A stretch of 64,000 bases of DNA from a virus. The notes beneath the pieces are model-generated. The model was not told the DNA's origin and made no database searches. It saw only the letters and a program-made list of their open reading frames with translations. The stretch is taken from positions 1-64,000 of the IMG/VR virus record IMGVR_UViG_3300005537_000022; one strand, written 5' to 3'. Below, in pieces: positions 5,817 through 59,443 of the stretch (within the stretch, counting starts at the first letter, position 1; each line of letters opens with the position of its first letter). A program made the position numbers and the translations under genes.

Positions 5817-6047
5817 ATGGCGAACACCACGACGCCGGCCAGGATCCACGCGGCGGTCACCGCCGCGCTCGCGGACCGCGCGGCCGGGCAGCGGAAGATC
5901 GCCGCCGGCCACGGGATGACCGGCCCGGCGTACGCCGGCACTCGCGAGGCACTGCGCGCCGAGGCGCGGCTGTGCGAAGACCTTCAGCGCATCCTCGGTC
6001 ACGTCACCCCGGAGGCGCTGGCATCGGTACTGGAGGCGCGGCCGTGA
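5817..6047 (+). CDS. small helical protein, 76 aa
   Basis: Starts MANTTTPARIHAAVTAALADRA; predicted largely alpha-helical from its Ala/Arg/Glu pattern. It follows the zinc-ribbon gene after a TGACC spacer and overlaps the next GTG by 4 bases. No known motif. Confidence 0.6.
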   Translation: MANTTTPARIHAAVTAALADRAAGQRKIAAGHGMTGPAYAGTREALRAEARLCEDLQRILGHVTPEALASVLEARP

Positions 6048-55812: not shown

Positions 55813-56313
55813 ATGACCGACAGTCCCGCAGAGATCCCCGCCGCCTTCAGCGGGCGGGTGAACGGCTCCCTGACTTCCGCGCAGCAGACCGCCGAGAACA
55901 CGGCCCGGATCGCCGCCCTGGTCGCCCAGATCCCCCAGGCGATCGGGATGATGCTCGCCCAGGTGGCCCGCGCCATACCCTCGGGCCACCTGTGCGCCAC
56001 GTGCCTGGCGAACAGGATCGCCTGGGAAGTGGCGAACCGTTCCCACGTCGAGGCGGCTATCGCCGGCGCGCGGGCGGCGCACGGGCTCGCTGAAGGGGAC
56101 CCGGTGCCGCCGGGGTTCGACCCGGCCCCGTTCCTGCCGGCGGACCTGCGGCCCGGCGCGGTGCGCGGCATGCCGCCGCTCACGGCCGCCATCACCACGG
56201 TCGCCGGGACCGACACCTGCTCCGAGCACATTCCCGGCCGGGCCGGGGGCCGGACGCTGCTGGTCGCCTCCGGGGCGCTGTCCCCGTCGGGGATGGCGCG
56301 CTTCGGCACCTAG
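55813..56313 (+). CDS. rightward moron-type protein, 166 aa
   Basis: Helical N-terminus (AENTARIAALVAQIPQAIGM), CATC metal-type pair near residue 61, and Pro/Gly-rich C-terminal half. Its end overlaps the MuF stop by 4 bases. Function unknown; the promoter position suggests leaderless, independent expression. Confidence 0.6.
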   Translation: MTDSPAEIPAAFSGRVNGSLTSAQQTAENTARIAALVAQIPQAIGMMLAQVARAIPSGHLCATCLANRIAWEVANRSHVEAAIAGARAAHGLAEGDPVPPGFDPAPFLPADLRPGAVRGMPPLTAAITTVAGTDTCSEHIPGRAGGRTLLVASGALSPSGMARFGT

Positions 56314-57110
56314 GCCGGGACTATCGCGCACCGGCAGCCGCCCGGGTGGGCCGGCGGGCACAGGTCGCCCGAAGGCCACTCGATCCCGGCGGGACGGGGA
56401 TCGGCGGCGGCATTGTCCAGGCACGCCTTGCAGGTCCGGGAGTCCTGTACGGCGGCCCACCGGAGCAGTCCCGCGCCGTTCGCCTGGTACCACTCCAGCG
56501 CGGCCAGGCCGCCCGCGACCGTGATCTGGGTGACGGCCAGCCCCTCGGCGTAAGCCCCGTCCGCCACGGCGGTCTCCAGCATGCCCGCGAGCTCGGACGC
56601 GGCCGTGTCCGGATCCCAGCCGGCGAGCACGCGGGAGACTACGTTCAGGTAGCCGTCCCCGATCGCCTGGGCGATGCCCGGCCCTTCCCCGCCGCCGGAG
56701 CCGCCGGCGAGCGAGGCGAGCAGCGCGGCCAGGCCGAGCGCCTCCGCCAGCCGCCTCGCCTTCGCCGTGTCTCCCGGGGTCCAGCCGGCCGTGTCCGCGT
56801 CGGCGCTGCCCGCCATCGCGGCCTGCGCCGACGTCCCGCCGATCGCCAGGGCGTCGGCGGCGATCCGCTCGGCCAGGTCCCCGGCCGGGACCGTGATCCC
56901 CTGCGACCGCAGCCAGGCGAGAGCCGCCGCGTTCCGCTCCCGCTTGCCGGGCGCGCTGCCGTCCTGATCCGGGTGGCCGGCCGTGTACGCGGAGGCGATG
57001 GCGTCCAGTTTCCCGCGCGAGAGCGCCTGCCGCGCCGCGGCGGTGACCTTCGGGGCCCACCAGGCGGCGGCGGCCAGGTCTAGCTTCCAGCCCGGCCAGT
57101 CACCAGGGCT
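56310..57110 (-). CDS. MuF-like head morphogenesis domain, expressed by -1 frameshift from the portal
   Basis: The C-terminal part has WAAVQDSRTCKACLDNAA, WPSGDLCPPAHPGGCRC, the MuF signature. MuF proteins bind the portal inside the head. The coding signal begins at the portal stop (GDWPGWKLDLAAAAWWAPKV), but the frame has no ATG, GTG or TTG there; the only upstream ATG (57236) lies 157 bases inside the Nudix region. The frame is -1 to the portal frame and a C CCA AAA heptamer (57116-57110) joins them. The result would be a portal-Nudix-MuF fusion. Confidence 0.75.
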   Translation of the reverse strand, partial: SPGDWPGWKLDLAAAAWWAPKVTAAARQALSRGKLDAIASAYTAGHPDQDGSAPGKRERNAAALAWLRSQGITVPAGDLAERIAADALAIGGTSAQAAMAGSADADTAGWTPGDTAKARRLAEALGLAALLASLAGGSGGGEGPGIAQAIGDGYLNVVSRVLAGWDPDTAASELAGMLETAVADGAYAEGLAVTQITVAGGLAALEWYQANGAGLLRWAAVQDSRTCKACLDNAAADPRPAGIEWPSGDLCPPAHPGGCRCAIVPA

Positions 57111-59443
57111 TTTGGGACGGGCATCGCCGCCTTCACCGCGACGGTCTCTTCCGGCTCGCAGCCCAGCAGCGGCAGCACGTCGCCGAGGGAGGCGGCCAGC
57201 TCTTCCCGCAGCATCGGGTTGCCGGGCAGGTCGCACGGGTCAGCCCACATGATCGCCTCGACGGCGTCGCCGTCCGGGTCGTCCGGGTTCGGCACCACGG
57301 CACCGCCGCGGACGGGGACCGCGGCCTCGGACTCGGTCGTCCACACGATGCCCCGGTAGATGCCGTCCCCGGCCGTCCACTCGCCCGTCACCGAGCCGGG
57401 AGGGGGAACGGCCCCGGTTTCCTCTGCCCATTCGCGCCATGCGGCGCGCAGCGGGGACTCATCGCCCTCGACGTGCCCGCCGGGGAACTCGATCTTGCCT
57501 CCGGCCGGGTCGCCGGGGTCGAGCGCCCGCTGGATCATCAGGACGCGGCCGGTGTCGGCGGCGAGGACCGCGAGGCCCGCGACCGCGACCTCGCCCGCGG
57601 CCTTGCGGACCGCGAGCCTTCCGTCGTCGTTGAGGTTGTGCGCCCAGACCCCTGGCACCGAGCGGAACTCGAAGTCCCGCCACTCGCCATCCTTGCGGCG
57701 GGCCTTCGCGAACCGGCGGAATGCCCGCATCTCCTTGAGGACGGCCGTGCTGCGGACCGCATCCGCGTCCTCGTCATCGTCGTCATCGCCGGCGAGGTCG
57801 TAGGAGTAGATCCCCGTCTCCGCGGTGATCCCCGCGGAGGCGTTCCCGGCCGGGGCCGCGCCCTCGCCTTCCTTGGCGACGGGCTGGCCGGGCCCGGCCT
57901 CGTCGGCCGGCGTCATCTTCGGCTGCGGGGGCGGCGCCGGTGGCATCGCGGACTCGCCGAACTCCCGCTCGGCCAGCGACATGACCTTGATCGGCGGGTT
58001 CGGCAGGACGCCCTCCGTGCCGCCGAAGACCGTCCGCGGCAGCTCCGCGCCTTCCTCGGGCAGCCCGTCCGCCGGGTCGACGTCGCCCGCGACGGCCAGC
58101 AGCGAGGAAACCGGGATGGGCCCGGCTCTCTCCGTGTAGATGAACCGGGGGATCGGCCGGGCGTCGGTCAGCCCGTAGCGCATCTCGCGGATCTCGGACG
58201 GGCCGATGACGCCCATCTTCATGTACTTGTCGTCGGCGTTCGCCTGGTCTACGCGGTCGTCCTGCTCCTCGCCGAGGTCGAACGCGAACTTGAGCGGAAG
58301 CTGCATGTCGTCTTGCAGGAAAGCGGTCAGGATGTCCTGCACGTGGTGGGCGAGCGGGAGGTCGCCGACGCGGTGCTGCACGTCGGCCTGCGACTCGCCG
58401 CTGCTGCGGTTCACGCTCTCGGTGAACCCGAGGTCGCTGGGGACCACGGAGTAGGCGGCGCACGTCTTGCGCATCAGGAACAAGCTGAACTTGTCGTCGA
58501 AGTCCTTCTCGCTGCTCCACGCGAACGACGAGCCGCCCGGGATCCACCGGATCTGGTGCTTGCCCTCCTGGTTGCCCAGCATGAAGCCGTCCCAGTATTC
58601 CTGGAACTGCTCGATCTGCTCCGGGGTCCAGCTTTCGGGGGCGCCCGCGAAGGCGGCGGGCAGGTTCCCGGCGGTGAACCGCTGGAGGAAGTAGAGCTGG
58701 AACCGGATGTCGGTGTTGGCGTTGAGGAGGATGTCCTCCAGCGGCGCCCGGCCGTAAGCCGAGTCGTCCTGCGGGTCGTACGGCTCGTAGATCAGGTCGT
58801 CGCGGGTCAGCCAGTCCCAGGCCAGCCCGTTGACGTACTGGACGTAGGCGGGGGCGGGAGAGTCCGGGGGGTCGCCCCAGTAGTCGAGCAGCGGCGCGAT
58901 CGTGGTGCCGTCGACGACCCTCAGGCCGACGCACCGGCCGGCCCGGTTCCGCATCCGGGCCAGGGTGCCGGCGTCGTAGGACAGTACGCCCCTCATCCAC
59001 TTGGCCAGCCACGGCTTGAACAGGGTCTTGCGGTCCGGCCGCTTCAGCGCGCGCATCCCGGCGGCGATGTCATCGGCGACGTCGCCGTCGTGGCCGTCGG
59101 CGGCGACGAGCTTCCAGTCCAGGCTGCGGAGGCTGGCGATCCTGTGGCGGATGCAGAGCTGGGCTACGTCGTAGGAGCCGATCAGGCCCTTGAGCGTCTC
59201 GAAGCTGACCCGTTCGTGGGTGCGCGGCCGGGTGGCCACGTTGTACTGCGGGACGTACTCCTTGGACCGCGGGGTGCGGGAGAACCCGTCGTACGGCGCG
59301 ATCGGCTCGCCTGGCGAGAACGGGGACGACGGGCCCATCTGGGCGCGTTCCTCGGCTGCCTCGATCGCGGGCGGGACGGAGCTGCCGAAGACCTTCGCGA
59401 CAGGCACCGGCGCGGCGGCGGCGGCGCGGGAACGGACGCTCAT
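57080..59443 (-). CDS. portal protein fused to a C-terminal Nudix hydrolase domain, 787 aa
   Basis: Residues about 70-470 are the portal (RHRIASLRSLDWKLVAADGH, DDLIYEPYDPQDDSAYGRAP, LEDILLNANTDIRFQLYFLQ, PSDLGFTESVNRSSGESQAD). An acidic linker (DDDDDEDAD) follows. Residues about 615-760 form a Nudix domain; the box GHVEGDESPLRAAWREWAEE-TGA (656-678) keeps every key residue of Gx5Ex7REUxEExGU, so it should be active. Nudix enzymes cut nucleoside diphosphates linked to other groups. The portal places it in the capsid interior or neck. Fusion is read through without frame breaks. Confidence 0.88.
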   Translation of the reverse strand: MSVRSRAAAAAPVPVAKVFGSSVPPAIEAAEERAQMGPSSPFSPGEPIAPYDGFSRTPRSKEYVPQYNVATRPRTHERVSFETLKGLIGSYDVAQLCIRHRIASLRSLDWKLVAADGHDGDVADDIAAGMRALKRPDRKTLFKPWLAKWMRGVLSYDAGTLARMRNRAGRCVGLRVVDGTTIAPLLDYWGDPPDSPAPAYVQYVNGLAWDWLTRDDLIYEPYDPQDDSAYGRAPLEDILLNANTDIRFQLYFLQRFTAGNLPAAFAGAPESWTPEQIEQFQEYWDGFMLGNQEGKHQIRWIPGGSSFAWSSEKDFDDKFSLFLMRKTCAAYSVVPSDLGFTESVNRSSGESQADVQHRVGDLPLAHHVQDILTAFLQDDMQLPLKFAFDLGEEQDDRVDQANADDKYMKMGVIGPSEIREMRYGLTDARPIPRFIYTERAGPIPVSSLLAVAGDVDPADGLPEEGAELPRTVFGGTEGVLPNPPIKVMSLAEREFGESAMPPAPPPQPKMTPADEAGPGQPVAKEGEGAAPAGNASAGITAETGIYSYDLAGDDDDDEDADAVRSTAVLKEMRAFRRFAKARRKDGEWRDFEFRSVPGVWAHNLNDDGRLAVRKAAGEVAVAGLAVLAADTGRVLMIQRALDPGDPAGGKIEFPGGHVEGDESPLRAAWREWAEETGAVPPPGSVTGEWTAGDGIYRGIVWTTESEAAVPVRGGAVVPNPDDPDGDAVEAIMWADPCDLPGNPMLREELAASLGDVLPLLGCEPEETVAVKAAMPVPKALVTGRAGS
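57110..57116 (-). other. -1 slippery heptamer C CCA AAA
   Basis: On the minus strand the portal frame reads GTC CCA AAA GCC; the last C plus CCAAAA makes X XXY YYZ in the correct phase. Slipping back one base continues as AGC CCT GGT GAC TGG in the MuF frame. A GAAGGCGG sequence about 12-19 bases upstream could act as an internal stimulator. Confidence 0.7.

Follow-up and report, generated by a model that had tools for sequence, protein, structure and literature searches.

In the portal gene of the IMG/VR virus IMGVR_UViG_3300005537_000022, a programmed −1 frameshift cassette very probably separates the portal(-Nudix) part from a C-terminal MuF domain, and two isoforms would be produced from it. 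The window, i.e. the whole stretch of DNA that was analysed, comprises the first 64,000 nucleotides of this record. The best reading is dnaX-like programmed −1 frameshifting giving a portal and a portal-MuF protein, and at the level of the sequence it is based on the slip site, its phase, its conservation, nearby stops and repeated switches of polarity. One and the same slip site seems to provide many viruses of soil actinobacteria with two versions of the portal protein, with and without an extra head domain.

The gene is located between the genes for the terminase large subunit (61837-60173) and the XkdF protease (53038-52520). Its features, in coordinates of the window, are as follows.

57080..59443, minus strand: zero-frame ORF for portal and NUDIX (787 aa; Pfam PF04860 at residues 97-421, PF00293 at residues 624-745)
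57121..57134, minus strand: anti-Shine-Dalgarno-like stretch GAAGGCGGCGATGC, a predicted stimulator upstream of the slip site
57110..57116, minus strand: slippery heptamer C CCA AAA, in phase with the portal frame
57087..57109, minus strand: region just 3′ of the slip site with a weak predicted hairpin (GCCC..GGGC)
57080..57109, minus strand: zero-frame tail ALVTGRAGS with its TAG stop (57082-57080), nine sense codons past the heptamer
56310..57110, minus strand: −1-frame MuF ORF, as it would be read once the ribosome has shifted (AGC CCT GGT ...), TAG stop at 56312-56310
about 56322-56597, minus strand: MuF domain

The zero-frame ORF gave clear Pfam scores for portal (4e-15) and NUDIX (1e-14), and the match of the MuF ORF (E 3e-4) was below the Pfam cut-off. 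PHROG 2662, a 'portal protein' model of 717 positions, matches both ORFs (the portal ORF at 28-403 and the MuF ORF at 601-707), which are thus the halves of a known fusion. Single-ORF proteins of the Arthrobacter phages Sonali and Mufasa8 (995 and 1000 aa), which pass the Pfam cut-offs for all three domains, align with the read-through protein from one end to the other. The domain order portal, optional NUDIX, MuF is collinear with and homologous to that of known fusions. In Sonali and Mufasa8 the parts are fused in frame, with CCCAAAA at the junction as an unannotated slip site. On the opposite strand of the window, a 166-aa ORF (55813-56313, plus strand) ends against the MuF stop; it has no match in Pfam or PHROG, and a similar ORF is found at the same place in contig L002. 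A tRNA-Asp called by ARAGORN antisense within the portal gene (58874-58969, plus strand) is probably a false positive.

At the junction the portal frame reads ...ATG CCC GTC CCA AAA GCC CTG GTG ACT GGC CGG GCT GGA AGC TAG. A reading of the sequence alone had proposed that C CCA AAA at 57116-57110 joins the portal frame in phase to the −1 MuF frame. Re-reading the sequence confirms the site, and the −1 reading (CCC AAA followed by AGC CCT GGT GAC TGG) yields exactly the junction peptide that had been proposed, MPVPK-SPGDWPGWKL. MuF was also said to begin exactly at the portal stop; this has to be corrected, as similarity to relatives begins at the heptamer, 10-11 codons before that stop. The claim that no start codon is present near the MuF coding start holds from 57233 to about 100 codons beyond the heptamer, an interval in which the MuF frame has no ATG, GTG or TTG, but not for the listed MuF start at 57236, which is itself a GTG. 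This GTG is located within a stretch whose MuF-frame translation has no likeness in relatives.

CCCAAAA occurs only once in the 98,382-bp virus record, both strands included, at the junction. Since 1.7 chance occurrences are expected per 64 kb (both strands, any phase), the heptamer in the window alone is only suggestive. Judged from the sequences, it is its conservation in relatives which makes the site decisive. Set 1 of our survey consisted of loci fetched by portal or MuF similarity only and scanned with portal-NUDIX and MuF profiles; after removal of near copies, 57 loci remained. An in-phase slippery heptamer was found in the portal-MuF linker of 55 of these, in 49 of them as CCCAAAA. 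All eight split loci of this set have MuF in −1 and an in-phase CCCAAAA, and the 49 loci fused in one frame carry CCCAAAA (41), GGGAAAA (4), CCCTTTT (1), CCCTTTA (1) or no heptamer (2). Set 2 comprised 71 non-redundant loci with Nudix-less portals, fetched via two portal alignments regardless of the heptamer; the query portals were taken from pattern-selected loci, near copies of which were excluded. As pattern-selected loci had been picked for the heptamer, they were not themselves counted in the conservation statistics. Here 63 of 71 loci have an in-phase heptamer: 33 loci are fused (32 CCCAAAA, 1 GGGAAAA), 30 are split in −1 (26 CCCAAAA, 4 GGGAAAA) and 8 are split in +1. At control codon positions an in-phase CCCAAAA was never found, neither among 48,142 positions for set 1 (same genes outside the linker) nor among 40,530 for set 2. 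The cassette is seen in IMG/VR contigs, in prophages of Streptomyces, Kitasatospora and Catenulispora and in one Acidimicrobiaceae MAG, and it is present as CCCTTTA in Subtercola. Hence the alignment of relatives, which had been suggested for deciding between a conserved heptamer and fused frames, gave both: most relatives are fused in frame and retain the heptamer.

Instead of being a slip site, the heptamer might be kept as a protein or DNA motif, for instance one cleaved by a protease at Pro-Lys, or one recognised in packaging or by an endonuclease. A recurrent KA(A/G)...PK linker would be in line with this, as would the frequent processing of phage head proteins. We nevertheless regard such a motif as extremely unlikely. 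CCA accounts for 148 of 3,650 Pro codons (4 percent) and AAA for 113 of 1,137 Lys codons (10 percent), and these rare codons are used almost without exception, which points to selection on nucleotides. Furthermore, the substitutes GGGAAAA, CCCTTTT and CCCTTTA encode different residues and have only slipperiness in common with CCCAAAA. Selection at the peptide level therefore cannot account for the heptamer. A mere motif would also leave unexplained why fused loci have so early a stop in the −1 frame, at a median of 4 codons past the heptamer compared to 62 at control positions (P<5e-5, relatives counted as independent). In the split loci of set 1 it is the zero frame which stops early, 7-27 codons past the heptamer. 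Due to these nearby stops, a short and a long protein would result from slippage in both the fused and the split state. Loci with other C-terminal modules (L021, L036, L064, L069) also retain the heptamer and the quick −1 stop. Taken together, a zero-frame X XXY YYZ is present at the junction, it is conserved beyond peptide constraint, and the alternative frame leads to a defined product, as is typical for −1 programmed frameshifting.

The closest relatives of the window allow two other explanations of its split gene to be weighed against programmed frameshifting. On the MuF tree its nearest relatives are L003, L009 and L010, which are split, and L016 and L030, which are fused; the fused state of the latter two is what would be expected if the gene of the window were truly fused in frame and its apparent split came from an indel made in sequencing or assembly. 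This is hardly credible, since the independent IMG/VR contigs L002/L009 and L003, with MuF parts about 62-67 percent identical to that of the window, agree with the window in heptamer, relative frames and portal stop. In addition, all 38 split −1 loci of both sets possess the heptamer and all but L315 an early zero-frame stop, a pattern that random indels would not give. L315 (set 2) is anomalous in its late zero-frame stop. In L019 a −1 break without a slippery heptamer was noted in the NUDIX domain near 5865, possibly a sequencing error.

The second explanation takes the heptamer to be incidental: MuF would have a start of its own in the −1 frame and be translated independently, either after ribosomes reinitiate at the portal stop or by use of a rare start codon. 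Very little probability remains for this in the window, as in L003 and L009, because ATG, GTG and TTG are absent for about 80-100 codons after the junction. In L003/L009 a TGA in the MuF frame directly precedes the heptamer, and the first ATG, GTG or TTG follows about 80 codons downstream. Independent starts do seem to be used in L326, L330, L334, L337 and L338 (five of the eight +1 loci of set 2), in which no heptamer is found and MuF lies in +1 with an ATG overlapping the portal end. L007, L029, L035 and L046 also have no heptamer, and the relatives without one are largely those possessing a start codon. As these five heptamer-less loci carry a MuF ATG, loss of the heptamer appears to accompany gain of a start codon. 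Conversely, the heptamer is conserved even in loci whose MuF part, being fused in frame, requires no start.

Apart from the slip site, we infer that slippage and its stimulation by SD-like and hairpin elements occur at these loci. C_CC.A_AA.A is among the frameshift-prone motifs in E. coli (PMC4066793). In the window the 30 nt upstream of the slip site are predicted to pair well with the 16S rRNA 3′ end (duplex −11.4 kcal/mol). For the family this pairing peaks in 10-nt windows whose first base lies 15-16 nt ahead of the heptamer, and about 6-16 nt upstream its mean is −6.9 vs. −2.8 kcal/mol (P 7e-30, relatives counted as independent). Enrichment of local structure is confined to the first 30 nt past the heptamer, with a mean z of −1.34 relative to shuffled sequences (P 5e-9, relatedness ignored); an example is the stem CCCTCC..GGAGGG just past the heptamer of Sonali. 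The downstream hairpin of the window itself is weak (z about −0.8). The codons for WPGW in this region, TGGCCGGGCTGG (57098-57087), are conserved across the family. Stronger stimulators had been expected in fused than in split loci, and no significant difference was found (z30 P 0.37, SD P 0.67).

Stuttering of the polymerase on CCCAAAA could in principle replace ribosomal slippage, and Thermus dnaX achieves the same two-product outcome in that way, as stated in a review (PMC5009743). The homopolymer parts of the heptamer are just 3 and 4 nt long, however, compared to runs of 9 A or T cited in that review (PMC5009743), and the strict X XXY YYZ phase, the structure just downstream and the SD-like pairing upstream fit −1 shifting by ribosomes. 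Transcriptional slippage is therefore most improbable here, and the earlier proposal of a programmed −1 frameshift from portal-Nudix into MuF is strongly supported by heptamer conservation, frame relations, nearby alternative-frame stops and homologous in-frame fusions.

The conserved site is found with both polarities, one in which the shift would fuse and one in which it would truncate. Between the fused and the split −1 state, a MuF tree of 159 rows requires at least 11 changes, 8 of which are forced by well-supported branches; on a tree of 95 rows there are at least 8, of which 4 are forced. Since sequencing indels may be present in single metagenome contigs, artefacts could account for a few of the isolated split states. 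For dnaX, role reversal is considered easy at an efficiency near 50 percent in the review (PMC5009743). The frequent reversals in our trees likely reflect intermediate efficiency or retuned stimulators.

One group of loci, L308 (5776), L310 (5860) and L311 (2157), the other three +1 loci of set 2, with the related L137 and L176, has kept the heptamer, which is entered in a different phase, with MuF in +1 relative to the portal. As the slip run lies in another phase, the ribosome would have to shift by +1 (or −2), and the group may represent a +1 (or −2) recoding variant. Large insertions of hundreds of bases to more than 1 kb, several of them in frame, were observed in the portal or NUDIX coding parts of L064, L065, L071 and L080 as well as L040, L042 and L056, and L056 has an intein-like sequence within its MuF part. 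No heptamer cassette was found in Brevundimonas phage Polewnik, the most distant portal-MuF fusion seen; accordingly, the cassette is a trait of this mainly actinobacterial lineage and not of all portal-MuF fusions. Likewise, Alicyclobacillus MMB025 has no heptamer at a linker. The distant portal-MuF phage of Thermoanaerobacterium THSA-485A has many heptamers, but is AT-rich.

Ribosomes remaining in frame on the mRNA of the window would produce the 787-aa portal-Nudix protein, and those slipping back one base on C CCA AAA a 1044-aa portal-Nudix-MuF protein. For most relatives the polarity would be reversed: as they are fused in frame with the same slip site, in-frame translation would give portal-MuF, and a slip would lead to the −1 stop a few codons on and thus to a short portal. 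In either state slippage on a single mRNA would give rise to two portal isoforms and determine their ratio. Their most likely role would be to supply MuF-bearing and MuF-free subunits for a ring with a limited number of MuF domains, and we infer that both assemble in mixed portals, which would limit the number of MuF domains at the portal vertex. A fixed fraction of portal subunits might then carry MuF inside the head, as the sequence-only reading had supposed; a supply of two isoforms, not simply a rare fusion, would widen that picture, and the phenomenon seems larger than described there. We consider it moderately probable that this actinobacterial phage lineage builds mosaic portal rings of MuF-bearing and MuF-free isoforms, the proportions of which are determined by a conserved −1 frameshift (+1 in one group) that works at intermediate efficiency, both isoforms always being made and fused and split states hence flipping freely.

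If this is true, the limited number of MuF domains in the 12-fold ring would be explained, and the copy-number question could be tested in the isolated phages Sonali and Mufasa8. Many phage annotations as 'portal-MuF fusion' would conceal a second product, and the many independent reversals of one recoding signal would make it possible to study the constraints that shift efficiency places on gene architecture. Among phage morphogenesis genes, those for tail chaperones and for some coat and tail proteins are known to use programmed frameshifting. No report of frameshifting in a portal or MuF gene was found in the openly accessible literature searched, and the word 'portal' is absent from the examined portion of the Atkins 2016 review.

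The closest parallel in mechanism is dnaX of E. coli, where one gene yields two products, tau and gamma, which differ by a C-terminal domain. As described in the review, dnaX likewise combines an in-phase slippery heptamer with an upstream SD-like element and a downstream stem-loop, the −1 stop follows a codon or so past the site, and role reversal is recorded in a few bacteria (PMC5009743). Unlike dnaX, the gene studied here is a phage portal gene, its heptamer is C CCA AAA instead of A AAA AAG, and reversals are frequent. With gpG/gpGT of lambda and many other phages it shares the function in morphogenesis and a −1 shift, late in the first ORF, which leads to an extended minor product. In contrast to G/GT, the gene encodes portal-MuF and most relatives are fused with the truncating polarity, which is undescribed for G/GT in the literature searched. 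Identity with the tail assembly chaperone itself was rejected on the basis of the genes flanking the locus, which are not those for the major tail and tape measure proteins.

Known portal-MuF fusions (Sonali gp3; Microbacterium clusters EA3, EA5, EA8 and EB; PHROG 2662) have the same domains in the same order, and the Sonali and Mufasa8 proteins are homologous to the window protein over their length; the annotations of these fusions show one simple ORF each and mention no frameshift. For Mycobacterium cluster B1 a protease-MuF fusion is described (PMC9584339), and NUDIX domains fused to portal or MuF are proposed to be packaged in the head and injected (PMC9503650). In SPP1, the MuF-type protein gp7 binds the portal protein gp6, few copies enter the procapsid, and virions without gp7 are about 25 percent infectious (PMC6316719). 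Thus SPP1, too, has a MuF-type protein that accompanies the portal in few copies and supports infection, but gp6 and gp7 are separate proteins binding each other, whereas here both parts would be covalently joined in one predicted isoform.
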